Positions 7,314 to 37,710 of a stretch of DNA of 40,894 bases are shown here, in pieces. Both the position numbers and the translations under genes were made by a program. A model generated the notes under the pieces. That model made no database searches and was not told where the DNA came from. It was given only the letters and a program-made list of their open reading frames with translations. Source of the stretch: Isosphaeraceae bacterium EP7 (GTDB lineage Bacteria; Planctomycetota; Planctomycetia; Isosphaerales; Isosphaeraceae); the NCBI GenBank assembly GCA_038400315.1, contig CP151670.1, forward strand, positions 1-40,894, written 5' to 3'. How positions within the stretch are numbered: the first letter of the stretch is position 1; every line of letters starts with the position of its first letter.

Positions 7314-8174
7314 TCAGTAAGGTATACCATTAATCCGGACCACCACGGTCTGGTCTTGCTGCTCGAGTCGACCTCCATCACTCAAGGTGACAACTCCATT
7401 CTTTGCTATGACTTTGAAGGTCTGACTTACACGCCTCCGAATGATATTTCCTGCTTCATCCCACCGAAGCGATTCATTTGAACGTTCTCTCAAGAGCCAT
7501 GTCAGTTCCCCGGTGAACAGAGATCCCTTCATGAGTCCCACAACTTTGTTATTTAGAATGTGTGGGATCCCGCAAAGTGCGTATTCGCCTGGGCTTGATG
7601 AGACCATTGTGATTGTGCCACTCGAGTTGAAAAATAGAGATTGAAAAAGCGGTGACACTTGCGTGGGCGGCTGCTCTACGGGTGCCATGGGCACTCCAGG
7701 AGGCCCATTGGGGCCAACGCTGCAACAATCAAAAATTGTCACGCAAAGACGGGTTTGTTTTGCCTGGATGGCCTTCTGGACAGTTGTGCGATAGAGTCGG
7801 CCTCCTCCATCGCTTGGCGGGATAATAAATGTGCCCTGGTTAACATCTTCATAATAGCCATGGCCACAATACATAAACACAATTGCGTCATCAGCACCGA
7901 CATTCAGCATGGCTATAGTGCGAAGGATGGTTTTCTGGTTTAACTTTTGCTTATCAAGTACGGTTAGCTTCAGCCTGGCCTCAGGCACTTGCTTTTTGAA
8001 TTGGGGAATTAACATGTATATATTACTTTCCATGTCATCCTTTATATCGGGCGAGATAGTGTCGGCAGCTAAGATTACGTGCAATTGGCTCTGAGCAACC
8101 GCCTTGTCACTAAAAAGAAGTAAGAAGCACAGTAATCCCAGAAATGTCGCAAGGCCTCGCATGTGATTTTGCAT
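7314..8174 (-). CDS. Secreted caspase-like (C14-fold) protein
   Basis: A 286-aa protein with a clear signal peptide (LATFLGLLCFLLLF, cleavage likely after AVA near residue 27). The caspase-hemoglobinase dyad is visible: H105 in FMYCGHGYY and C150 in VTIFDCCSV, each after a hydrophobic strand, as in metacaspases and paracaspases. The protein ends after a short beta region and carries no extra effector domain. The start at 8174 has GAGAGGGG about 8 nt upstream; an in-frame ATG four codons later is also possible. Planctomycetes encode many such proteins, so it may be host-derived cargo. Export to the periplasm sets it apart from cytosolic abortive-infection caspases. Lower G+C than the virion genes. 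Confidence 0.82.
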   Translation of the reverse strand: MQNHMRGLATFLGLLCFLLLFSDKAVAQSQLHVILAADTISPDIKDDMESNIYMLIPQFKKQVPEARLKLTVLDKQKLNQKTILRTIAMLNVGADDAIVFMYCGHGYYEDVNQGTFIIPPSDGGGRLYRTTVQKAIQAKQTRLCVTIFDCCSVGPNGPPGVPMAPVEQPPTQVSPLFQSLFFNSSGTITMVSSSPGEYALCGIPHILNNKVVGLMKGSLFTGELTWLLRERSNESLRWDEAGNIIRRRVSQTFKVIAKNGVVTLSDGGRLEQQDQTVVVRINGIPY

Positions 8175-8872: not shown

Positions 8873-9373
8873 CTAACGTGACATCGCAGCTTCCGGGACC
8901 ACCATATAAGCCCTCTGCCTCACTTCATCCCAGGCAAACACCGGCAACGGTCTGAACTCTCTCCAGCCGGTGGCATCTCGATCGATCGGAGCGGTCAGTC
9001 CGGGCCAGGCCTTAATGAACTCGGCCCCGACCTGTTCAAGCCTCTGACGCGTCCTCCAGTAGATCGCGTCATCGACCTCGACGCCCGCCTCGATTGACCG
9101 GGCCAGCGTGGCGTCAACTTGGGCGAGAGCCTCGGACGCTTCCTGGAGGAGTGCAGCGAGGGCCTGGGCGTGGGTCGGGTAGTCGAGGTTTATGCTCGTC
9201 ATCCACGATCTCCAGACAGACTTCCACGCTCCGGCCGCATAGATGGCCAGGGCCCGGACCGCGTCCATGAGATGGTGGATCTCGGCTGGCGTCCTAGGTG
9301 GGCCAGGCTGAGACAGGGAGTTGATCAGGCCAATGATCCGATCGAGTTCCTCGAACGCCGGGATCGTGGTCAT
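8873..9373 (-). CDS. Hypothetical helical protein at the end of the replication operon
   Basis: Unrecognised 166-aa protein, mostly helical, with no signal peptide or membrane segment. The middle region is rich in Ala, Glu and Gln and may form a helical bundle, while the C-terminal part (FRPLPVFAWDEVRQRAYMVV) looks like beta-strands. The ATG at 9373 has AGGA about 8 nt upstream. It follows dnaB by 69 bp on the same strand and is probably co-transcribed, so a replication accessory role is possible. Confidence 0.6.
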   Translation of the reverse strand: MTTIPAFEELDRIIGLINSLSQPGPPRTPAEIHHLMDAVRALAIYAAGAWKSVWRSWMTSINLDYPTHAQALAALLQEASEALAQVDATLARSIEAGVEVDDAIYWRTRQRLEQVGAEFIKAWPGLTAPIDRDATGWREFRPLPVFAWDEVRQRAYMVVPEAAMSR

Positions 9374-10831: not shown

Positions 10832-12126
10832 CGTCCCGCCCCCCGCTGCGTGGCAGCGATCAACGCGGCGGGGTCGCTGACTTTGCTCGCCCAGTAATCG
10901 GCCGTGAGCGGCTGGATTTCCTCGGGAGATGCAACCGGAGTTGTCTTGAGAGACAAAGGCGAGATCGCAAGGGGCTTGGGCTTGACAGGAGGATTAGCCC
11001 ACTGCGATCGGGGCAGCATCGTGCCGTCGTCGAGCATGTTGTCCCAAGGGCCAGACTGCGCCCCTTTGGCCTTCCATCTCTCGGCGATCGTTTCGAGGTA
11101 GCCGAACGTCTCAGGCTCGTCTTTCGACTCGCGAGTGACCTTCCAGTGTTGAAACTTGACCACCTTGAGGATCAAGGCACCGGGCAGGCCGTTGATGTTG
11201 GTCCGGATCCCTCTGGCGACCTTGGGTGCCCAGAACTTCCCGGCCATCACGGCGGCCGTTTCGATGGCTGCCTCGTCTTCGGTTCGATCCGAGGCTTCCG
11301 TCCCTTGATCCTGAACCGACAACACGCTCTCGACCTCTCTGTGTTGGTTCTCTGTATTTTGTCTCTGTATTGTGGGGGGCAAAATCTCAACGAAAACGTT
11401 TAGATCTGGCACTTGAGGGTCAACGTTTTCGTTTAGATCGCTCGCGGGCATGTCAACGTTTTCGTTGCCCTCGGAGACGGACCCCGGCATCGAATGGCAA
11501 CGTTTTCGTTGACCCCCACGCGTCCTTTCCTTGACCGCCCGGTGGGCCTTCGCCCCGAAGTCGAGGGCGTCGAAGCACCACGCAAGTTGGCTGGCGGAGA
11601 GGAGAGGGCCGCCCGTCTCGGGGTCAATCCAGGTCAGGTAGTCCTTGATCGGGAAGAGACCTTCTTTGGTCTCTGAAACGATCCCCTTGGCCACGAGCGT
11701 CTTCTTCGCGACCCTCAGCGTGTTCGCATGATGCCCCGTGCCCCTGGACAGCCCGGCGAGGTTGACGACACACCGGACGGGCTCCGGTTCCACGTCTGAC
11801 GGCTTCTTCGCCCGCATCCCGATGTGCCAGGAATGGAGGAGTAGCTCGTCGAAGACGACCCTTTCGGCCGGGCTCAGGGCGAGCGAGATGGCCCGCTTGA
11901 GGTCGAGAGCCTCGCGGACCCAGTTCTCATTCTTGAGGCTGGCGACGCGGCGTGCGGGGGCACTCCCGGTCGAACGCAGGCCATCGGCGTCGGTGGTAAC
12001 CGTTTGCCTCGTCGTCACGCCCACCACCCGATAAGCCGGGCTTGACGGAGCGACGGCGTGGGCGTACGGAGACCCGCCACTGCGGGGTTGCCCCGCATGG
12101 GTTGCTGAGCTAATATTAGGGGACAA
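10828..12126 (-). CDS. Replication initiator, phage O/plasmid Rep-like
   Basis: A 432-aa protein. Residues about 60-185 form a winged-helix-like domain (LSPAERVVFDELLLHSWHIG, then a helical segment with NTLRVAKKTLVAKGIVSETK) as in phage replication O-type and plasmid initiators. The middle (about 200-270) is low-complexity, with NENVD occurring twice, because the DNA there contains iterons. The C-terminal half (about 285-430) is less conserved and probably contacts DnaB. The TTG at 12126 is chosen because AAGGA precedes it by 7 nt; no ATG or GTG is available for another 33 codons. The gene overlaps dnaB by ATGA. Assignment as initiator rests on the wing-like domain, the internal iterons and the dnaB coupling together. 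Confidence 0.75.
   Translation of the reverse strand: MSPNISSATHAGQPRSGGSPYAHAVAPSSPAYRVVGVTTRQTVTTDADGLRSTGSAPARRVASLKNENWVREALDLKRAISLALSPAERVVFDELLLHSWHIGMRAKKPSDVEPEPVRCVVNLAGLSRGTGHHANTLRVAKKTLVAKGIVSETKEGLFPIKDYLTWIDPETGGPLLSASQLAWCFDALDFGAKAHRAVKERTRGGQRKRCHSMPGSVSEGNENVDMPASDLNENVDPQVPDLNVFVEILPPTIQRQNTENQHREVESVLSVQDQGTEASDRTEDEAAIETAAVMAGKFWAPKVARGIRTNINGLPGALILKVVKFQHWKVTRESKDEPETFGYLETIAERWKAKGAQSGPWDNMLDDGTMLPRSQWANPPVKPKPLAISPLSLKTTPVASPEEIQPLTADYWASKVSDPAALIAATQRGAGR
11349..11510. other. Putative replication origin inside the initiator gene (iterons and paired 13-mers)
   Basis: Four perfect 12-bp copies of AACGTTTTCGTT occur at 11389-11400 (inverted, AACGAAAACGTT), 11422-11433, 11455-11466 and 11499-11510. 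Start-to-start distances are 33, 33 and 44 bp, each close to a whole number of helical turns, so the sites share one face of the DNA. Beside them two tandem 13-mers, TCTCTGTATTTTG (11349-11361) and TCTCTGTATTGTG (11362-11374), form an AT-rich candidate unwinding element. Iterons plus adjacent 13-mers within the initiator coding sequence match the lambda ori-in-O layout. Copies fall in two reading frames, so coding constraint alone does not explain the repetition. Confidence 0.82.
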
Positions 12127-19323: not shown

Positions 19324-20208
19324 TTAAGAATGTCTGCAATGCTTTTTAAGCCATTCTATCAGAACGTTATAATCCCTGTACGACATCCTATGGTTGACTT
19401 TTCGTTGAAAGTCCAGCGCACCCGCAGTGAACCGGGTGGTTGCAACGACAATGCCTGCTGTAGCTCTTTCCTGCTCGACGATCCCGTAGAGACTTCGCAC
19501 GATCTCGACACCGACGGGGTTATTCTCCGCGTAACGTTTGCACTCGACGAGGAAAAGAAATCTCCCATATGCGGTATTCATGTAGGCAAGGATATCTCTC
19601 CCTCCGTCATTGGTCGGTGGAGTGAGTGTTACATCCAGCCCATCTCGAGCAAGGAGTTCGCAGATCAATTCCTCGAATTCTCGGGGTGGTAGTTCACGCA
19701 TAATAGATGGATTTTTCGATAACTTGTTGATGATTGGCTGCCATTGCTTTCCTGCAACAACGATGATCTTCTGGGATTCTTCGGGAGGTGATTCGGCTGA
19801 TAGGATGTGCTGTTGGACATCTTCAGGCAAATATTCAAGTTCAAGTCCAGAATAGCCAAATAAAAATATCGATGGATCTTCAAATAAATTGGCTAATCTT
19901 CTATCATAGTGTTTAGATAAGTAATTTAAAATCCGGTTGACGACCTGGACTGTAGTTCCGTTGACTCCATAAACGATTCCGGCATTTCCGTCGGGCCCTG
20001 CGGCTTGACGAACGACCTCGACTTCCACGTCAGATATTTCAATGACTAGCTCAACGCCTGGCGATCCTGGCTTTAATTCTGCACCCCATTTCCAGAGAGT
20101 TGCGTCTCCAATTAATGTTTCGTTTGCGCCATCTTTCAGAAGCACCATACTGAATGAAGATCCAATTGAACGTTGACTCTTATTTCTATAAACATAAAGT
20201 TTACTCAT
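19324..20208 (-). CDS. Mrr-type restriction endonuclease-like protein
   Basis: A 294-aa protein. The C-terminal half has the Mrr catalytic pattern: PPREFEELICELLARDGLDV, then D205 in NDGGRDILAYM, and E222-x-K224 in FLVECKRY. This is the PD-(D/E)xK core of type IV/Mrr nucleases. The N-terminal part (about 1-150) is not a typical Mrr winged helix and contains strand-rich sequence with VIEISDVEVEVV; it may be a sensor domain. The region is clearly lower in G+C than both neighbours, a sign of recent transfer. It follows the 64-aa gene by one base or so, so the two are a unit. Likely role: defence against modified or foreign DNA. Confidence 0.8.
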   Translation of the reverse strand: MSKLYVYRNKSQRSIGSSFSMVLLKDGANETLIGDATLWKWGAELKPGSPGVELVIEISDVEVEVVRQAAGPDGNAGIVYGVNGTTVQVVNRILNYLSKHYDRRLANLFEDPSIFLFGYSGLELEYLPEDVQQHILSAESPPEESQKIIVVAGKQWQPIINKLSKNPSIMRELPPREFEELICELLARDGLDVTLTPPTNDGGRDILAYMNTAYGRFLFLVECKRYAENNPVGVEIVRSLYGIVEQERATAGIVVATTRFTAGALDFQRKVNHRMSYRDYNVLIEWLKKHCRHS

Positions 20209-28225: not shown

Positions 28226-29308
28226 TCAATAGACGAGGGCGGCGGGCACGTCGTAGCTGCCGCTGGCCTTGAGCTGGACGACGACTCCGTTGAGCCGATT
28301 GACCACGCCCATCCCGAACCGGTGCCGCCAGAATGAGGATTCCATGGGGAATTCCTCGTCCTTGGCCACCAGTTGCAGCCCCCGGCCGAATCCCTGCTCG
28401 ATCGGGTCGATCCGCTCGTATAGCGGGGCCGGGGCATCGGCGTGAATGCCGAGCATGTACCCGGTGGGAATCCACCTCCAGGTGGCCACCCAGGCGCCCG
28501 ACACTCGGCCGATGATCCGGGCCGAGGACGGGATATTGGGGCTGCCCGCTGGCCGGGCGGTGTCGTCGCCGAGGACGATGAACCGATCCGGCTCATCCAC
28601 GAAGCCGGTCATGGCCTTGGTGACGTTGGCCTGGTCGGGGTGGATCAGTACCACCACGTTGGAGCCGCCGGCCGACTCGCCGTAGTGCTCCTCCAATTCG
28701 GCAACGATCACGGCATAGGGGTCGTTCGTATCGCTGATCGCCGATGCGAGGTAATTGGACACGATGAAGTGATTCTCGGTCGCGTAGGCCGAGGTGCCGA
28801 TCGTCGGTTCGAACAGGACGCCATCCCCGTTGGCGAACGGCTGGATGATCAGATCGCCCCACTCCTGATCCTTGAATGTACGGGCGACGTTGTTGAACAG
28901 GGCTCTGAGGATCTGCTTGCGGACGACGTTGCGGCCTTGATTGAGGACCGTCTCGACGTGGCGGTTGAGTTCTTGGAGGCGCATCTTCTTGATGGTCACG
29001 TCATCGACCAAAATCTGCGCCGCGTAGTCTTCGAGCGGGAGCGCGACTTCGTAGCCCGGTCCGGCCTTGACCGCCTGTGGCGCGGTCTGCTCCATGCGGA
29101 GCTGAAGCTCGCCGCCGCCGATCGTCTTGAATCGCCACTTGTAGAGGTCCGTCGACTGATCGACGAAGAACTCCGTGCTAGTGGCGATCTCCTGGTTGAA
29201 CCTGTCGATCAGCTCGACCGTGGCGCCGTAAATCGTCGTCTGCCCGACCTGGTTGACATACGAGTTGTCCAGGTCCGGCAGGCCGAGCGCACCGTGAATC
29301 ACGCCCAT
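28226..29308 (-). CDS. Major capsid protein (HK97-fold type, inferred)
   Basis: A 360-aa protein whose ATG (29308) has a perfect AGGAGG 7 nt upstream, as expected for the most highly made virion protein. It has a helix- and strand-rich pattern with long charged helices (KKMRLQELNRHVETVLNQGR) and a beta tail (MGVVNRLNGVVVQLKASGSY). It is preceded by a decoration-like gene and a scaffold gene and follows portal and terminase, the standard order. The 'VVVLIHPDQANVTKAMTGF' stretch is reminiscent of P-domain sequences. HK97 fold is inference; the sequence was not matched. Confidence 0.78.
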   Translation of the reverse strand: MGVIHGALGLPDLDNSYVNQVGQTTIYGATVELIDRFNQEIATSTEFFVDQSTDLYKWRFKTIGGGELQLRMEQTAPQAVKAGPGYEVALPLEDYAAQILVDDVTIKKMRLQELNRHVETVLNQGRNVVRKQILRALFNNVARTFKDQEWGDLIIQPFANGDGVLFEPTIGTSAYATENHFIVSNYLASAISDTNDPYAVIVAELEEHYGESAGGSNVVVLIHPDQANVTKAMTGFVDEPDRFIVLGDDTARPAGSPNIPSSARIIGRVSGAWVATWRWIPTGYMLGIHADAPAPLYERIDPIEQGFGRGLQLVAKDEEFPMESSFWRHRFGMGVVNRLNGVVVQLKASGSYDVPAALVY

Positions 29309-29373
29309 CGTGAACCTCCTAGCGAGGAGAAAAGCCGGCCATGGCGGACCCGGCGGGAAATGAAGCGAGGCGG

Positions 29374-29790
29374 TCAGGCCACGAGGGCCGGCTTGGGGAA
29401 GTCGAGGTAGATGATCTTGGAGAACTCGCCGTCGGAGGTCGCCTCCACGCGGCCGACGACGATCGAGACGGTTCCCGCCGCGGTATCCAGGTCGCCGGCG
29501 TCGTTGACATAGACCAAGGCGCCGCAGCTGAGCCCAGAGACGTTGAAGCCCGAGATGTAACCTCTCCGCATGATGCCGGCCGCCTGCCCGGGCGAGACGC
29601 CGCGGAGGTTCACACCGATTGGATTTTTCTTGCCCGACACCGTGAGGGCTGCGACGCCGACTTTGCCGGTGGCGAGCAGATACCCGCACTTGCCCGCGGC
29701 CATCGCCTCGGCCGGGACGTGGGTGTAGAGCTCGCAGTTAGGGAAGTTGGTCGGGTTCAGATTGTTCGCATCGAACGTGATCACAGCCAT
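29374..29790 (-). CDS. Capsid decoration/stabilising protein
   Basis: A 138-aa beta-rich protein with AAAGGGG before its ATG (29790). Its repeated short strands (CGYLLATGKVGVAALTVSGK, SIVVGRVEATSDGEFSKIIY) and position between scaffold and major capsid protein fit head decoration proteins of the DUF2190/gpD-like type. Length is in the usual 100-150 range. Specific family not confirmed. Confidence 0.65.
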   Translation of the reverse strand: MAVITFDANNLNPTNFPNCELYTHVPAEAMAAGKCGYLLATGKVGVAALTVSGKKNPIGVNLRGVSPGQAAGIMRRGYISGFNVSGLSCGALVYVNDAGDLDTAAGTVSIVVGRVEATSDGEFSKIIYLDFPKPALVA

Positions 29791-29816
29791 TGAATCGCCC
29801 CTTTCCGAGCGTGAGG

Positions 29817-30566
29817 TCAGATGCCGCCGAGCCGGCCGTTCTGGAAATACTTCTCGACCCGCGAGCCCATCGGCGCGGGAACCGGTCGTGAGCCGGACGA
29901 TGCCGACTGGTGGCCCCTGGGGAGACCAGGTGCTGCCTGAGCCTGCCCCGGCCTGAGGCTGGGCAGGAACTCGGCCCACTGCTTCGCCGCGTGGTCGGCG
30001 AGCCTGATCGGCTGGCCGTCCTCGCCCTCGCGGGGGACGACGTAGGCGACCTTGGCGTCCCTGGCCCCGACCTTCTCGTCCCTGATCTCGAACCGGAGAT
30101 CGGCGGCGAGCGTGGACAGGACCCTGGGATTGAAGCCGCCGACCTCGGCGACGGTGCGAAGCTCCTCGGCCCGCTCCATTCGAGAGGCCCTCTCGGCGGC
30201 GGCCTTGCCGTCCTCGATGGCCTTCGTCAGCTCTTCGGCCTTGCCGAGCTTGCGGTAGTGGTCGAGGGCCTCGATGTCCTTAGCGGAGGCCACGACCGAG
30301 CCGGCGGGCACCCTGCCCTCGGCCTGGGCGAGCTTCTCGCGGGCCTCGGTCAGCTCGCGGTGGAGGTCGCGGGCATAGCCGATGGCGTCGTTCTCGCGGG
30401 CCTTGAGCTGGTCGGCGAACCCGCTCGCCTCGGAGGCCTTGAGCCTCCTGGCCTCGGCGGCCTCCAGCTTGGCCAGCTTGTCGCCGACGATCTTCAGTTC
30501 GGCGGTCGGATCGGCGACGGCTCCGCCGCCTCCCCCGTCCGCGTCGGGGTTCAATCGGATGATCAT
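29817..30566 (-). CDS. Scaffolding protein
   Basis: A 249-aa protein with a long coiled-coil (about 25-130: KIVGDKLAKLEAAEARRLKA, KARENDAIGYARDLHRELTE, AREKLAQAEGRV) and a C-terminal basic, Pro-rich tail (GSRPVPAPMGSRVEKYFQ). This is the typical design of phage scaffolds, which bind the inside of the capsid shell during assembly and then leave. It overlaps the portal gene by ATGA. No protease domain is present, so a separate or host protease would be needed if it is cleaved. Confidence 0.72.
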   Translation of the reverse strand: MIIRLNPDADGGGGGAVADPTAELKIVGDKLAKLEAAEARRLKASEASGFADQLKARENDAIGYARDLHRELTEAREKLAQAEGRVPAGSVVASAKDIEALDHYRKLGKAEELTKAIEDGKAAAERASRMERAEELRTVAEVGGFNPRVLSTLAADLRFEIRDEKVGARDAKVAYVVPREGEDGQPIRLADHAAKQWAEFLPSLRPGQAQAAPGLPRGHQSASSGSRPVPAPMGSRVEKYFQNGRLGGI

Positions 30567-32146
30567 GATTCCACCTCGTTAGGAGCGTCGATTGAGGAGT
30601 CCGAGGCGGGATTGAGTGCGGCCTTCTCGGCCGAGGCCGCCGCGATCTCGCCGTCGTCGAAGCCCGTCCGCCGCATGGCGATGGCCAGCGGTACGCCCGC
30701 CGACACCAGGGCGCCTAAGGCCGATGCCCTGGCCTGCTCGTCTGCGATGCGGTCGGCCTCGTCGAGCCCAAAGACCGGCCTGGAGCCGATCGAGTGGTCG
30801 AGCGTGCCGGCCCGGTAGCTTTCCAGGCCGAAGCCCTCATAGCCGGCATACCCCTCGAAGCCGCCGATCGCGGCGGCCATCTGGTGGGCCCGGACCAGGG
30901 CGTCGTCGTAGCTCGCCCTGCGTCCGAGCACCTTGGCCTCGGCGGGCTGTCGTGCAATCCGCAGGGCCTCGCCGCTGGCGTCCCCGCTGGCACGCAGGCG
31001 GTCGAATCGCAGCTCGGGGAAGTCGCGCTCGATCTCGGCGGAGAGCCCGGCGATCGAGGCCACCACGTCGGCGATGTTGAGATTGGTGACCAGGGCCGTG
31101 GGAGTCCCCGCCCCCTCGCCCAGCCAGATCGCCGGATGCTGGTCGCGCCCGGGATCGGACCGCCCCTCGGCCTGCGTGGCGGCGAACTGGCTGACCGGCC
31201 CCGACTTCGGGGCGGGCATCGTGACCCCGACGGACGGCTGCTTGGCCGGGAACGCCCACGGGGCATTCGCCATCCGCCGCACGAAGTCGTTCAGGACCGA
31301 GGCCTGATCGTCCACCTCGAAGATCTTGCCCCGCTCGGCGTGCAGCTCCGACCACCCCGCCCCGGCCCCGACGTCGAGGTGCTGGGCCCAGACGAACGGG
31401 ACGAACCCGTAGGGCAATACCCACTCGACGCCCTCGGGCCCCCAGGCGTACGGGGCGTCGTCACGCGTCGTGCGATAGAGGACGTCGTCGCCGTCCCCCC
31501 GCTCGACCACCTTGGCATAGCGGGCCGTCCGCCCGGGGTACTCCGGGTCGGGCCGGTCCTCCTGGAAGGTGTAGCCCCGGACGTTGCCGCCGCGGTCCAG
31601 CTCGAAGTCGACCAGCTTGCGGGGGTCGACCGGGACGAGCGTGACGCGGCCCTTGGCCGGGTCGTTGTGGACCTCCATCGGTGCGTCGCCCATCACGGCG
31701 CCGTACCGGCCCCAGATCGACTTGCCCGTCTGCCAGTTGGAGTCCCGCCAGAGCCGAGACAGGGCCAGGCGTAACGCGGGGCTCGCCCCGGCGATCGGCA
31801 ACGCGGCACGGGTCACCGACCCGTCGCCGGCCGCGGTGTCGAGCGGGCCGCCCATCAGGTGGGTGGCCCAGAACTCGCCCAGTCGGTAGCTCGGGTTGTA
31901 GATCGAGCGGATCGAGCGGTAGAGGCCGAGCCTCGACCGCATGGCGGGCGCGAGGCCGTTGAGGACGTCGCGATAGACCGAATTCTCGTACAGGCCCCAG
32001 TAGACCTGGTAGCGTTGGAGCCGGGCCTCATAGGACGCGAAGTCGCCCCGGCCCCCCGCCCCTCGCGAGGTGGAGAACGACGACTCGCGGAACGCGTTGA
32101 GCCCCGCCCGGATCCCGGTCATGAATCGCCCCAGCATGTTGGCCAT
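30563..32146 (-). CDS. Phage portal protein
   Basis: A 527-aa protein forming the ring through which DNA is packaged. Seen: an N-terminal region followed by the conserved-type segment with YRSIRSIYNPSYRLGEFWAT, a beta-rich domain with RVTLVPVDPRKLVDFELDRG, the long helical core (VASIAGLSAEIERDFPELRF), and a helical C-terminal crown (RASYDDALVRAHQMAAAIGG). The size suits large portals. The ATG at 32146 is set by a TGATG overlap with terminase; the upstream part of the open frame is antisense-like. Adjacent terminase makes the assignment firm. Confidence 0.85.
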   Translation of the reverse strand: MANMLGRFMTGIRAGLNAFRESSFSTSRGAGGRGDFASYEARLQRYQVYWGLYENSVYRDVLNGLAPAMRSRLGLYRSIRSIYNPSYRLGEFWATHLMGGPLDTAAGDGSVTRAALPIAGASPALRLALSRLWRDSNWQTGKSIWGRYGAVMGDAPMEVHNDPAKGRVTLVPVDPRKLVDFELDRGGNVRGYTFQEDRPDPEYPGRTARYAKVVERGDGDDVLYRTTRDDAPYAWGPEGVEWVLPYGFVPFVWAQHLDVGAGAGWSELHAERGKIFEVDDQASVLNDFVRRMANAPWAFPAKQPSVGVTMPAPKSGPVSQFAATQAEGRSDPGRDQHPAIWLGEGAGTPTALVTNLNIADVVASIAGLSAEIERDFPELRFDRLRASGDASGEALRIARQPAEAKVLGRRASYDDALVRAHQMAAAIGGFEGYAGYEGFGLESYRAGTLDHSIGSRPVFGLDEADRIADEQARASALGALVSAGVPLAIAMRRTGFDDGEIAAASAEKAALNPASDSSIDAPNEVES

Positions 32147-33567
32147 CAGCCCCGCCAATCGTCGAAGGGATTGTCGGAGTAGCCGACCGCCCGCAGGCCG
32201 GCGTGGTGCATGACGCCGTATCGGAAGGCGTCGTAGGAGTCGTCGCCGCCGACCCCGTCGTCGTCGGTGTCCACCTTCCGGACCTTCTCCGGCTGGGCCG
32301 GGTCGTGCTCCATCGCCGGCAGGCACTCGATGAGCCTCGGGCACCGCTCGGAGATGAACAGCGTCGGGGGGATGCCCCGCTCGGGATCGCCCAGCCGTTT
32401 AAGGATTGTGCCGGCCCCGTTGATCCGGTCGTTGATCGCCCGCTCGAGGACCAGCCCGGCGTCCTCGTAGTCCTCGGCGATCGTCCGGCCGTTGCGGTCC
32501 TTGCTGAAGACGTCGTGGCCGGCGACGGTGGCCAGCACCCGGTGCGGCTCGATGCCGTTGCGGCCGAGCATGTCGCGGATGGCCGATGCGTGGGTCTCGG
32601 GGAGGGCCCGGCGTTCCGCATGCTCGTCGAGGGCGTAGATGTTGCCGTCGCCGTCGGAGCCCATCAGGTAGCAGGCGGTGTAATGGGTGAAGCCGTAGTC
32701 CAGGGCCAGCCAGACGTCCCATTCCAGCGGCACATCGAACGCCGGCAGGACGTGGAGATCGGCCCGCCAGGTGGTGAAGAACTGGCCGGCGGCGATGTCC
32801 CAGTCCCCGTACCGCCAGGCCCGCAGCTGCCAGCCGGTGAGTCGGTCGAGCACCTTGCGGTAGCCGGGATTGGTGGCCCGATTGTCGTCCACGGTGGCCG
32901 GGATGAACCGGGTCTCGTGCTCGGCCCCCTTGCGGGCCGGGGAGACGAACCGACGCTTGTACCAGGCGTGGCCGATGCCGCCGGGGTTGGTGGTCGAGTA
33001 GATCCGGGGCCGCCAGCCGGGCTTGCTGGTCCGGTTGCATGTCTGGATCGCCTTGTATTTGGAGGAGGTCAGCGTCGTCGCTTCCTCGACCCCGATGGTG
33101 TCGTATTCCAGCCCGAGATACTTGTCGATGTCCTTCTCATTCTGGAAATGACCGGTCACGATCCGGCTGCCGTTGGGGAACCGGAGCTGGCCCTTCGTCG
33201 GCACGTAGTCGTATTCCAGGCCGCCGATGACCTTGGGCAACAGGTCTTCCATCCCCTCGGTGTTGGACCGGCCGACCTTCCTGAGCAGCAGGCACTTCAG
33301 CCCGGGATAGCGTTGGCAGTCGTCGGCGGCCATCTGGGCCATCATCCAATGGCTCTTGCCCCCGCCTCGCGCCCCGCCGTAGCCAACCTCGTCGGGGCCG
33401 TCGGGGCGGTCGCATTCGCGGGCGGCGGCCGAGGCCCTCAGCTGCTTCGGCTGGAGCGGGCACCCCGCCCGGATCAGGTTCGACACCAAGTCCGGGGGGC
33501 AGCCGGCGTCGCGTGCCGCAGCGGCGAACCGGTCGAAGGCCAGAGCCGCGAGAGCATTGCCGGCCAT
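32146..33567 (-). CDS. terL: Terminase large subunit
   Basis: A 473-aa packaging motor/nuclease. Seen: Walker A GGARGGGKS at about 64-72, Walker B TIGVEE at about 156-161 (E is the catalytic glutamate), coupling motif STTNPGG near 190-196, and the RNase H-like nuclease with D289 in LALDYGFTH and acidic DDSYDAFRYG near 446. All main motifs are intact, so it should be functional. It overlaps the portal start (TGATG) and lies 16 bp after the small-terminase-like gene. DNA cutting mode (pac or cos) cannot be read from this. Confidence 0.95.
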   Translation of the reverse strand: MAGNALAALAFDRFAAAARDAGCPPDLVSNLIRAGCPLQPKQLRASAAARECDRPDGPDEVGYGGARGGGKSHWMMAQMAADDCQRYPGLKCLLLRKVGRSNTEGMEDLLPKVIGGLEYDYVPTKGQLRFPNGSRIVTGHFQNEKDIDKYLGLEYDTIGVEEATTLTSSKYKAIQTCNRTSKPGWRPRIYSTTNPGGIGHAWYKRRFVSPARKGAEHETRFIPATVDDNRATNPGYRKVLDRLTGWQLRAWRYGDWDIAAGQFFTTWRADLHVLPAFDVPLEWDVWLALDYGFTHYTACYLMGSDGDGNIYALDEHAERRALPETHASAIRDMLGRNGIEPHRVLATVAGHDVFSKDRNGRTIAEDYEDAGLVLERAINDRINGAGTILKRLGDPERGIPPTLFISERCPRLIECLPAMEHDPAQPEKVRKVDTDDDGVGGDDSYDAFRYGVMHHAGLRAVGYSDNPFDDWRG

Positions 33568-35796: not shown

Positions 35797-37710
35797 ATGT
35801 CAAAGACGCATTTTTTAGCGGTGATCCTCGGCGCCAAGGAATTCCCCGACGCCCCCGGGTTCACCTCGGACCTGGCCTTCGAGAGATCTCGCGACCTGTT
35901 CAAGAAATATGCGGCGGCGGACCTTGGAGTCCGGTTCGCGGGCTTCCGCGCCAAGGCTGAGCAGATGCAGTCCGCCGACGGCCTGGACTTGTTCAACTCC
36001 GATCGGTCCGCCGACGACCAGGACGCCATGATCGGCCGCTTCCTCAAAGGACGCCTCGAACGCCTGAAGGCCGAGGGGAAGGAGGACATCACGCTCCTGC
36101 TCTATTACGTCGGCCACGGCGCGTTCAGCGGGCAGGACTTCTACTTCGCGGTGAAGAAGACCAGGGCCGAGAACCCGCTCGCATCGAGCTTCATCGGGAA
36201 GACCCTCGCCGAGACGGTCAAGCGAGAGGCCGCTTGGATCAGGTTGTGCGCGATCCTGGATGCCTGCTTCTCCGCGGAGGCCGCCCGCCTATTCCTCGGG
36301 TCCGGGGACGAGGCCGCCGCGAGGTCCTTCGTTAAACGCGGCATCTCCCTGCTGTGCTCGGCCCCGAGTAACGCGGTGAGCTACATCCTCCCGGACAGTT
36401 CGGGCACCGCGTTCACCGACGGTTTCGTCTCGGCTCTCCGCGAAGGGGTCGCGTCCGGCGATCAGTTCCTAACCCTCCGCCAGCTGAAGGACCTCGCTTC
36501 TCGCAAGATCGAATCACGCAAGGAAGATTTGAAAGCGCGTCTCGACGAAAGAGCGGTCGCCGACTATGACCCGCCCGACCCCCAGCTCCACTCACCGAGT
36601 CAGCCGGGTGGTGACCTCGCGGATGTCCCCTTATTCCCGAACCCCGCACGTGTCGCCTCGCAGTCGTCGGGAGACCGTACGGAGCCTTCAGGGCCTGTCG
36701 CTCGGACAGAGACCACGGGGCAGAGCCCCGATCCTCCCGGTAATGACGTCTCGGCTCTCCTCGAGAAAAAGATGAAGCTCGTGGAGGCGAAACGAACGGA
36801 GAGGCAGAAGAATGTTGAGGATCTGATGAGGCGGCAGGAGGAGGCTAGGGTCGAGGTGAGAGAAGAAGTCGAGGGCATTCACGAGCGTGTGCTCGACGCG
36901 ACCCGCATCGCGAAGTGGCTCGATCAGCTGAAGACACGACTCCAGAAAGAAGACGAGGCAGCGGCCACAGACTTCCAGCGCCTCTCCGCCATCGGCAAGG
37001 AATTGCCGAGTCGATCGAAGGTGTTTAAGGAGGATCTCCGCCGCGTCAGACTCGCGAGCGAGCGTGCGTCTGCGCGACGGCTCGCCGCGAAGCAGATGAC
37101 TGCACCGGCGACCACGACGCTTGTCGCGCACTACGATTACAGCACTCGCGAGTCCTCCCAGCGTGTGCCGTTCGCCTCGTGGGTGGAATCGAAGCTGAGC
37201 GAAGCGGCGGATCGTCGCGTGCGGTCGATGAGGTGGAACTGGGCTCGGGCTGCGTGGCGATGGGCAAAGGATGCGTTCACTTCATACTGGCCGATACTCG
37301 CCCTCTGGCCCTATTTCGGGTTCCTGATCTGGTGTGGGCTCGCTTCGCCGCTGTTCTGGGGTTCCACCGAGTCGCTCTTGAGCAAGGTGCTCGCGAGAAT
37401 CCAAAACATCTACATCCTAGGAATCTACATCGTCCCAGGCGCGTTCCTATTCTTTGGGTGTATATCCATCAGTAAAAAATCCGTCGATGAATTTACAGTC
37501 GGATGCATTAGCGCCTTCGTCGGTGCTCTCCTTCTCTTTTTGGGAGTTAAGTTGACCCTAGAATGGGGATATGGCGCATTGATGATCCCCCAAAAGTTGG
37601 CGAAACTATCGACGATGACCGGTTTTCTGATCGGTATCGCTCATCTAGTTTTAATCCTTTTGGGGCCCGGTATCGTCACCCTCGCCCTATCGAAGCGCGA
37701 CAGATGGTGA
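35797..37710 (+). CDS. Membrane-anchored caspase-like effector
   Basis: A 637-aa protein. N-terminal C14-like caspase domain (about 1-230) with H107 in LYYVGHGAF and C157 in AILDACFSAEA. A Pro/Ser-rich linker (about 245-310) follows, then a long coiled-coil (about 315-430: LLEKKMKLVEAKRTERQKNV, RRQEEARVEVREEVEGIHER). Then come several transmembrane helices from about residue 490 (FGFLIWCGLASPLFWG, IYIVPGAFLFFGCISI, FVGALLLFLGVKLTL, LIGIAHLVLILLGPGIVTLAL). Caspase plus coiled-coil plus membrane domain suggests a membrane-located death effector released or activated on infection. It is directly downstream of EACC1 and coupled to it. No proteolytic maturation site is visible. Confidence 0.85.
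   Translation: MSKTHFLAVILGAKEFPDAPGFTSDLAFERSRDLFKKYAAADLGVRFAGFRAKAEQMQSADGLDLFNSDRSADDQDAMIGRFLKGRLERLKAEGKEDITLLLYYVGHGAFSGQDFYFAVKKTRAENPLASSFIGKTLAETVKREAAWIRLCAILDACFSAEAARLFLGSGDEAAARSFVKRGISLLCSAPSNAVSYILPDSSGTAFTDGFVSALREGVASGDQFLTLRQLKDLASRKIESRKEDLKARLDERAVADYDPPDPQLHSPSQPGGDLADVPLFPNPARVASQSSGDRTEPSGPVARTETTGQSPDPPGNDVSALLEKKMKLVEAKRTERQKNVEDLMRRQEEARVEVREEVEGIHERVLDATRIAKWLDQLKTRLQKEDEAAATDFQRLSAIGKELPSRSKVFKEDLRRVRLASERASARRLAAKQMTAPATTTLVAHYDYSTRESSQRVPFASWVESKLSEAADRRVRSMRWNWARAAWRWAKDAFTSYWPILALWPYFGFLIWCGLASPLFWGSTESLLSKVLARIQNIYILGIYIVPGAFLFFGCISISKKSVDEFTVGCISAFVGALLLFLGVKLTLEWGYGALMIPQKLAKLSTMTGFLIGIAHLVLILLGPGIVTLALSKRDRW

Follow-up and report, generated by a model that had tools for sequence, protein, structure and literature searches.

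The window, that is, the whole stretch of DNA analysed here, has a length of 40,894 bp and is the entire contig C4 of a five-contig 7.2-Mb (7,199,273-bp) genome. Its features are collected in Table 1. The three virion genes match phrog_3990 (E = 4.4e-27), phrog_104 (2.2e-4, a weak match) and phrog_2 (1.2e-30), and a tyrosine recombinase gene is also encoded on the contig. A 40.9-kb contig with both plasmid and virion genes would naturally be read as a phage-plasmid. The earlier note had described what looked like a phage-plasmid with its own DnaB, and plasmid, virion and DnaB genes were all found on the contig. In the genome of the window, 49 matches to PF07587 (PSD1) were detected, versus 0 in 14 control genomes. 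Since we take this family to be a marker of planctomycetes and their neighbours, the counts are consistent with, though not proof of, a planctomycete host for the element.

Several further features of the element were observed. Two caspase-like peptidase genes are present on the one phage-plasmid, at 7314-8174 (-) and 35797-37710 (+), with PF00656 E-values of 4.4e-6 and 7e-5. A gene of an Mrr-type restriction endonuclease at 19324-20208 (-) (PF04471, E = 2.9e-23) shows a low third-position GC of 0.43 and is possibly a recent arrival. About 1.4 kb downstream of parA, at 2199-2471, two imperfect repeats are interleaved (67 nt twice and 41 nt twice), containing the words AACGATTATCGT and CCAAACAACCTT. 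This region is a candidate for a centromere or a second control region.

Table 1. Features of the 40,894-bp window, and the evidence for each
Feature	Position	Strand	Evidence or remark
ParA-type ATPase (plasmid partition)	1..819	+	PF13614 E=5.5e-45; start codon is the contig's first base
DnaB-type replicative helicase, 462 aa	9443..10831	-	PF03796 E=1.3e-65, PF00772 E=2.8e-19
Initiator gene (P0001), 432 aa	10828..12126	-	ORF counted from the first TTG, with a possible start further inside
Winged-helix region related to Phage_rep_O, ~residues 66-170	11617..11931	-	hhalign 96.6% and 95.7%
Iteron copy 1 (gene order), AACGAAAACGTT	11499..11510	-	read as QRKRC
Iteron copy 2	11455..11466	-	read as NENVD
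Iteron copy 3	11422..11433	-	read as NENVD
Iteron copy 4, inverted	11389..11400	+	read as NVFVE
Tandem 13-mer a, CACAATACAGAGA (coding strand)	11362..11374	-	sequence and period test
Tandem 13-mer b, CAAAATACAGAGA	11349..11361	-	sequence and period test
Tandem 13-mer c, ACCAACACAGAGA	11336..11348	-	sequence and period test
Virion genes: major head protein, portal-like (weak), terminase large subunit	28226..33567	-	PHROG matches

The stop of the initiator gene overlaps the start of dnaB by 4 bp, and the coupling of the two genes claimed in the earlier note is thereby confirmed. The window DnaB shows 35-39% identity to the main dnaB products of the host family (among the matches listed) and approximately 31-33% to phage DnaBs (25 listed of 1299). 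By these figures it stands closer to the host family's own dnaB than to the listed phage DnaBs, and is perhaps host-derived. A Pfam scan of 30 window ORFs revealed no separate helicase loader. No Rep_3-type initiator was found either: the initiator has no Pfam match, and no such protein is present among the 30 ORFs (Pfam, E up to 0.1 or 0.01).

Within the initiator gene, at codons 206-247 of 432, the word AACGAAAACGTT (other strand AACGTTTTCGTT) occurs in four exact copies starting at 11389 (inverted), 11422, 11455 and 11499. The start-to-start spacings are 33, 33 and 44 bp, exactly as described earlier, and the 7,199,273-bp genome contains no further exact copy. The word is a dyad, AACG-N4-CGTT, in which the palindrome covers 8 of 12 positions. 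If a single mismatch is allowed, 10 sites were found in the whole genome versus 9 for a reversed control pattern, indicating that the motif is at background away from the cluster. With up to two mismatches, the window has 5 matches, whereas shuffled sequences have 1.38 on average (1 of 100 shuffles reached 5). In 60 first-order Markov windows, no 12-mer was present three times, without mismatch, inside a 160-bp stretch. The copies at 11455 and 11422 are read in one frame as NENVD and that at 11499 in another as QRKRC, so the claim of two reading frames is correct; the inverted copy is read as NVFVE. As four copies give three peptides in two frames, it is the DNA, not the peptide, that is repeated.

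The array was reached by 0 of 500 synonymous-codon shuffles, in which the protein is kept, and by 0 of 500 codon-order shuffles, which shows a constraint on the DNA itself. In the positive controls of the synonymous test, the lambda O array was reached in 0 of 200 shuffles, and that of P22 gene 18 in 2 of 200. Six control genes (the dnaB, terminase and integrase of the window, and three dnaB genes of other loci) gave no such signal: between 18 and 60 of the 60 shuffles did as well as the gene itself. The copies had also been described as helically phased. The phase is exact at 11.0 bp per turn, but not at 10.0 or 10.5, and at 10.5 bp per turn it drifts to about half a turn across the array. 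The phasing is thus a weak claim.

The earlier note had placed two AT-rich tandem 13-mers next to the iterons. The repeats are real, but they are three in number (11336-11374). They are located 3' of the array in the gene direction, 14 bp from the nearest iteron. Their 21 of 26 period-13 matches are the unique best among 40,856 window positions, while Tandem Repeats Finder at score 30 listed nothing in 11200-11600. As the three 13-mers fall in all three reading frames, they are again repeats of DNA and not of peptide. Of their 39 bases, 24 are A or T, and the coding strand has 22 A and 2 T (counted by eye). The AT-richest 50-mer nearby, starting at 11356, is within the top 1.35% of the window, and the 75 bp downstream of the iterons are 52% AT versus 38% for the gene, which is a moderate enrichment only. 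In stability, the tract ranks among the lowest 1.2-1.7% of the element, a moderate instability; the least stable windows start elsewhere, at 19.85-20.18 kb. Aligning the DNA of the AT tract to P22 and lambda gave no useful information.

The initiator itself has no Pfam match at E up to 10 and no PHROG match at E up to 1. According to hhalign, a profile of P0001 and its relative L006 matches the Phage_rep_O members at 96.6% when L047 is included, and at 95.7% when only six members from other phylum genomes are used; these profiles are of low diversity, one of them consisting of two sequences (P0001 and L006). The control gave 0.1%; it consisted of two Cro-type HTH proteins, from the window and from L043, instead of a second winged-helix family. 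The link of P0001 to Phage_rep_O runs partly through the chain from L006 to L047, and the direct comparison of P0001 with L047 is suggestive only (E = 0.027). P0001 does not reach the curated cut-off of PF04492, and no PF04492 match occurs anywhere in its own genome. From the profile match, the lack of a Pfam match and the direct E-value, we therefore call P0001 a diverged relative of the O proteins, and not a PF04492 member.

A profile of the three initiator sequences matched one PDB sequence, at chance level (E = 0.25), and an AlphaFold model of the initiator from the single sequence had a mean pLDDT of 34 and was discarded. A Y-x3-[IC]-x3-W string is common to all three initiators (P0001, L006 and L047) and resembles a DnaD motif. 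A DnaD-like C-terminal domain was considered as a guess and set aside, as it has no Pfam support.

When the 44 other genomes in the bacterial family were searched, one gave a homologue of P0001. This protein, L006 (G008:C16), shares 28-29% identity with P0001 over the winged helix (29% over residues 62-181), with E-values of 8e-10 in the pairwise comparison and 2.9e-6 in the genome. In its linker after the winged helix, palindromic repeats of the TTCCAC-N4-GTGGAA type are located 21 bp apart, and dnaB follows with a 4-bp overlap. A third initiator, L047 (G008:C5), was found via the C-terminal half of L006. L047 is assigned to Phage_rep_O by Pfam (E = 1.4e-10, above the cut-off), has palindromic ACAAATTTGTTTC-type repeats 19-27 bp apart in its linker, and is followed 6 bp downstream by a DnaB-like ORF. 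Both relatives are in a single genome. Synonymous shuffles reached the array of L006 in 2 of 300 cases and that of L047 in 0 of 300. Among the 45 family genomes, from 40 of which a dnaB was obtained at E up to 1e-20, more than one dnaB at this threshold was confined to G000 (1 extra) and G008 (2 extra). The extra copies are those of the window and of the L006 and L047 loci, and all three follow an initiator with linker repeats.

Thus, the place of the repeats is kept and their sequence is changed, as would be expected for sites that co-vary with their reader protein. According to a passage in the phage L paper, the iterons co-vary with the initiator in lambda, P22 and L (PMC8022706). In the 75 bp 3' of the repeats, L006 and L047 show no significant tandem tract, and the AT contents are 44 versus 41% and 40 versus 40%, respectively. 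The lack of a clear tandem or AT-rich tract in both argues against a fixed design of the opening region.

According to the earlier note, absence of the repeats in close relatives despite a conserved protein would refute its reading. The two distant relatives do have repeats, and no close one was found in the collections searched. No close relative of P0001 was found in viral contigs, plasmids or phages. In the 392 phylum genomes, neither the P0001 protein nor the three-sequence profile gave any beyond its own, with up to four candidates per genome scored. No relative of the L006 protein was found in phages, plasmids or viral contigs. A locus in G013 (L046, E = 9.3e-4 to the L006 protein) was dropped, as no initiator-like ORF was seen there.

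These results lead us to propose that 11336-11510 is a putative O-type (P22/lambda) intragenic replication origin of the 40.9-kb phage-plasmid with its own DnaB, with a probability of roughly 0.87. Five lines of evidence make this reading the best supported: the relation of the winged-helix region to Phage_rep_O, the array in the middle of the gene, the A-rich repeats 3' of it, the overlap with dnaB, and the layout in both relatives. At ori-lambda, as outlined in PMC5043065, O dimers bind iterons with inverted repeats, and the adjoining A+T-rich tract opens. By analogy, dimers of the initiator would bind the four dyad iterons via the winged-helix domain, and the resulting complex would strain and open the adjoining A-rich tandem 13-mers. 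The DnaB from the overlapping next gene would then be placed on the opened strand, probably through contact with the C-terminal part of the initiator. Such an origin would be used in the plasmid state, in the lytic cycle or in both.

The repeats could instead be initiator-binding sites for autoregulation, or for copy-number or incompatibility control of the initiator-dnaB operon, with replication starting elsewhere. The array does lie inside the operon that it could control, and the element has other repeat clusters, for example that at 2199-2471. In addition, the cumulative GC skew of the window is lowest at 9091, which is close to the array but outside it, although this signal is weak and not decisive. 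However, the array starts roughly 600 bp into the gene, behind the winged-helix region and beside A-rich tandem repeats, as in the origins of P22 and lambda, and we consider a purely regulatory role improbable. Still less probable is a partition (parS-like) site or a site for a host protein of the plasmid, unrelated to initiation. The element carries a ParA gene, and clustered dyad sites are typical of centromeres, but the array is about 10.5 kb from the end of parA and inside the initiator gene, and the distant relatives keep its place and change its sequence, in the manner of sites co-varying with an initiator. Selection of a repetitive, disordered protein linker for its peptide sequence is scarcely credible, since only the NENVD shared by two of the four copies speaks for it, whereas the remaining copies are inverted or read in a different frame, the 13-mers fall in all three frames and the synonymous shuffles never reached the array.

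Arrays like that of the preferred reading, an O-type origin inside the initiator gene, were surveyed more widely. With dnaB as bait, 22 loci were found in genome contigs. In 14 of these, a gene judged by eye to be ribosomal-protein-L9-like is just upstream; we take it to be that of ribosomal protein L9, and the 14 loci were set aside by this neighbour as chromosomal dnaB. In viral contigs, the dnaB bait gave 14 loci and the DnaB beside L006 gave 10 more. A set of 22 initiator-type genes was then compared, with 60 synonymous shuffles each. It consists of P0001, L006, L047, L093, five genes picked by eye from the ORFs upstream of the bait dnaB (L007, L012, L017, L035 and L041) and 13 of the 15 PF04492 places. 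The remaining two places were excluded, L103 because no listed ORF fits the match and L113 because the match is in a 2008-aa open frame. The array was reached by at most one shuffle in 10 of the 22 genes; 4 are borderline (2-4 shuffles) and 8 are without an array (8 or more). Of the 392 phylum genomes, 14 have a PF04492 match, which exceeds the cut-off in 10; among the 14 control genomes, 2 have one.

A search for the iteron pair in viral contigs gave nine contigs. In one of them, L093, the pair is in the linker of an HTH-type initiator; in three it is in the same kind of 1034-1042-aa gene, in one it is in a 126-aa ORF, and in four no ORF of 100 aa crosses it. The L093 gene was found by the DNA pattern alone, its HTH match to PF13730 being weak (E = 0.0024, below the cut-off). 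At L093:2485-3681 (-), AACGAAAACGTT occurs twice in the linker together with two copies with 2 mismatches, all 21-22 bp apart. In a 180-kb viral contig, at L098:3855-3955, four near-palindromic ACGAAAACGTTTTCG-like repeats were observed 28-29 bp apart, with no 100-aa ORF across them.

Fifteen O-type genes of named phages were examined in the same way. They were hand-picked (lambda, P22 and KS9, and 12 from 80 rows listed of 438 and 274 records), and the genes of HK97 and HK446 are nearly alike. For thirteen of them, no more than 1 of 60 shuffles matched the repeats of the gene, and 12 of the 15 have an array in the linker. In MPK9, the repeats are in the C-terminal half of the gene and not in the linker, and Haboob (5 of 60 shuffles) and SDFMU_Pfc (60 of 60) fail the array test. 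An O-like gene is annotated beside a gene of a DnaB-like or replicative helicase in P22, HK97, Haboob, Midgardsormr38 and SDFMU_Pfc, and in KS9 the two genes adjoin in the other order. Partners of the P or DnaC type accompany the O-type gene in lambda, SPN3UB and MPK9. According to this survey of arrays and helicase neighbours, the replication module of the window is of a common kind.

The least expected by-product concerns the tandem repeats just 3' of the iterons, which were tested in 15 genes with 1000 shuffles. Repeats as good as the observed ones appeared in no shuffle for the window (period 13), L102 (14), L105 (15) and L093 (12), in 1 for P22 (period 14), 2 for L100 (16) and 9 for L012 (11), and in 23 for L101 (15) and 46 for L108 (11). 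The repeats are not significant in lambda (154, period 15), L104 (95), L114 (99), L047 (207), L006 (724) and KS9 (940). Immediately 3' of the iterons, 6 of the 15 named phage O genes have two ACAAAAGA-like words at a distance of 13-15 bp, namely lambda, P22, HK97, HK446, IPK and SEN22 (loci L119, L120, L122, L125, L128 and L129), where the word was chosen after the data had been seen and HK97 and HK446 count nearly as one. The likeness of these words may come partly from shared ancestry or coding. The strand asymmetry of the lambda tract is already known from a passage in PMC5043065. We treat the strand-biased tandem motif 3' of the iterons in some O-type origins as a lead and not as a result. 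One can speculate that A-rich direct repeats of 13-16 bp, located 3' of the iterons irrespective of iteron sequence, form a strand-specific single-strand code with the core ACAAAAGA in these six phages (ACAATACAGAGA/ACAAAATACAGAGA in the window), which would guide DnaB or the initiator's C-terminal region onto one strand, like the 13-mers of oriC; this idea is doubtful.

No paper on this element was found by title or start of abstract among the open-licence literature on planctomycete phage-plasmids and prophage origins. Like lambda, the window has four dyad iterons midway through its initiator gene, followed in the gene direction by an AT-rich strand-asymmetric tract; passages in PMC3349717, PMC7466680 and PMC5043065 give this order of iterons and asymmetric tract for ori-lambda. 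However, the lambda iterons are spaced at 20, 24 and 23 bp instead of 33, 33 and 44 bp, and lambda uses the loader P and the host DnaB, whereas the window has its own DnaB in that place and no P after the O-like gene. The P22 and HK97 modules are closer. In both, an O-like initiator with mid-gene iterons is followed by the phage's own DnaB-like gene with a 4-bp overlap, as in the window; in P22 these are gene 18, which contains an annotated rep_origin, and gene 12. Tandem A-rich repeats 3' of the iterons are shared by the window and the module of P22, HK97 and phage L. The differences are in the iterons (12-14 bp at spacings of 33, 33 and 44 bp with one inverted in the window, words at 20, 24 and 14 bp in P22), in the initiator (432 aa with no detectable Pfam match, against 271 aa in P22) and in the ParA of the window element. 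Thus, the origin inside an O-like gene claimed in the earlier note is supported, but its closer model is P22/HK97, with an own DnaB beside the O-like gene, and not lambda, with a P loader and the host DnaB.

The phage-plasmids P1 and P7 also carry their own DnaB homologue (ban), like the window element, and the lytic origin oriL of P1 is postulated within repL (PMC9948254). In Rep_3 iteron plasmids, initiator-binding repeats lie beside an A+T-rich tract, which resembles the window; passages in PMC5043065 describe 13-mers in the A+T-rich tract by the iterons of RK2 and the binding of plasmid iterons by initiator monomers. Unlike in these plasmids, the window has dyad sites within the gene itself, and a Rep domain was not found in its initiator. 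The proposed origin would add a phage-plasmid from a planctomycete-type host to the carriers of P22-type replication modules, and suggests that an initiator with no Pfam or PHROG match can be recognised via intragenic iterons, since these stand out more readily than protein homology. Should the origin be functional, the compact cassette of origin, initiator and helicase might serve vectors in such bacteria. The arrangement has long been known from lambda and P22, and what is new is a diverged, largely ordinary example in an under-sampled host group.
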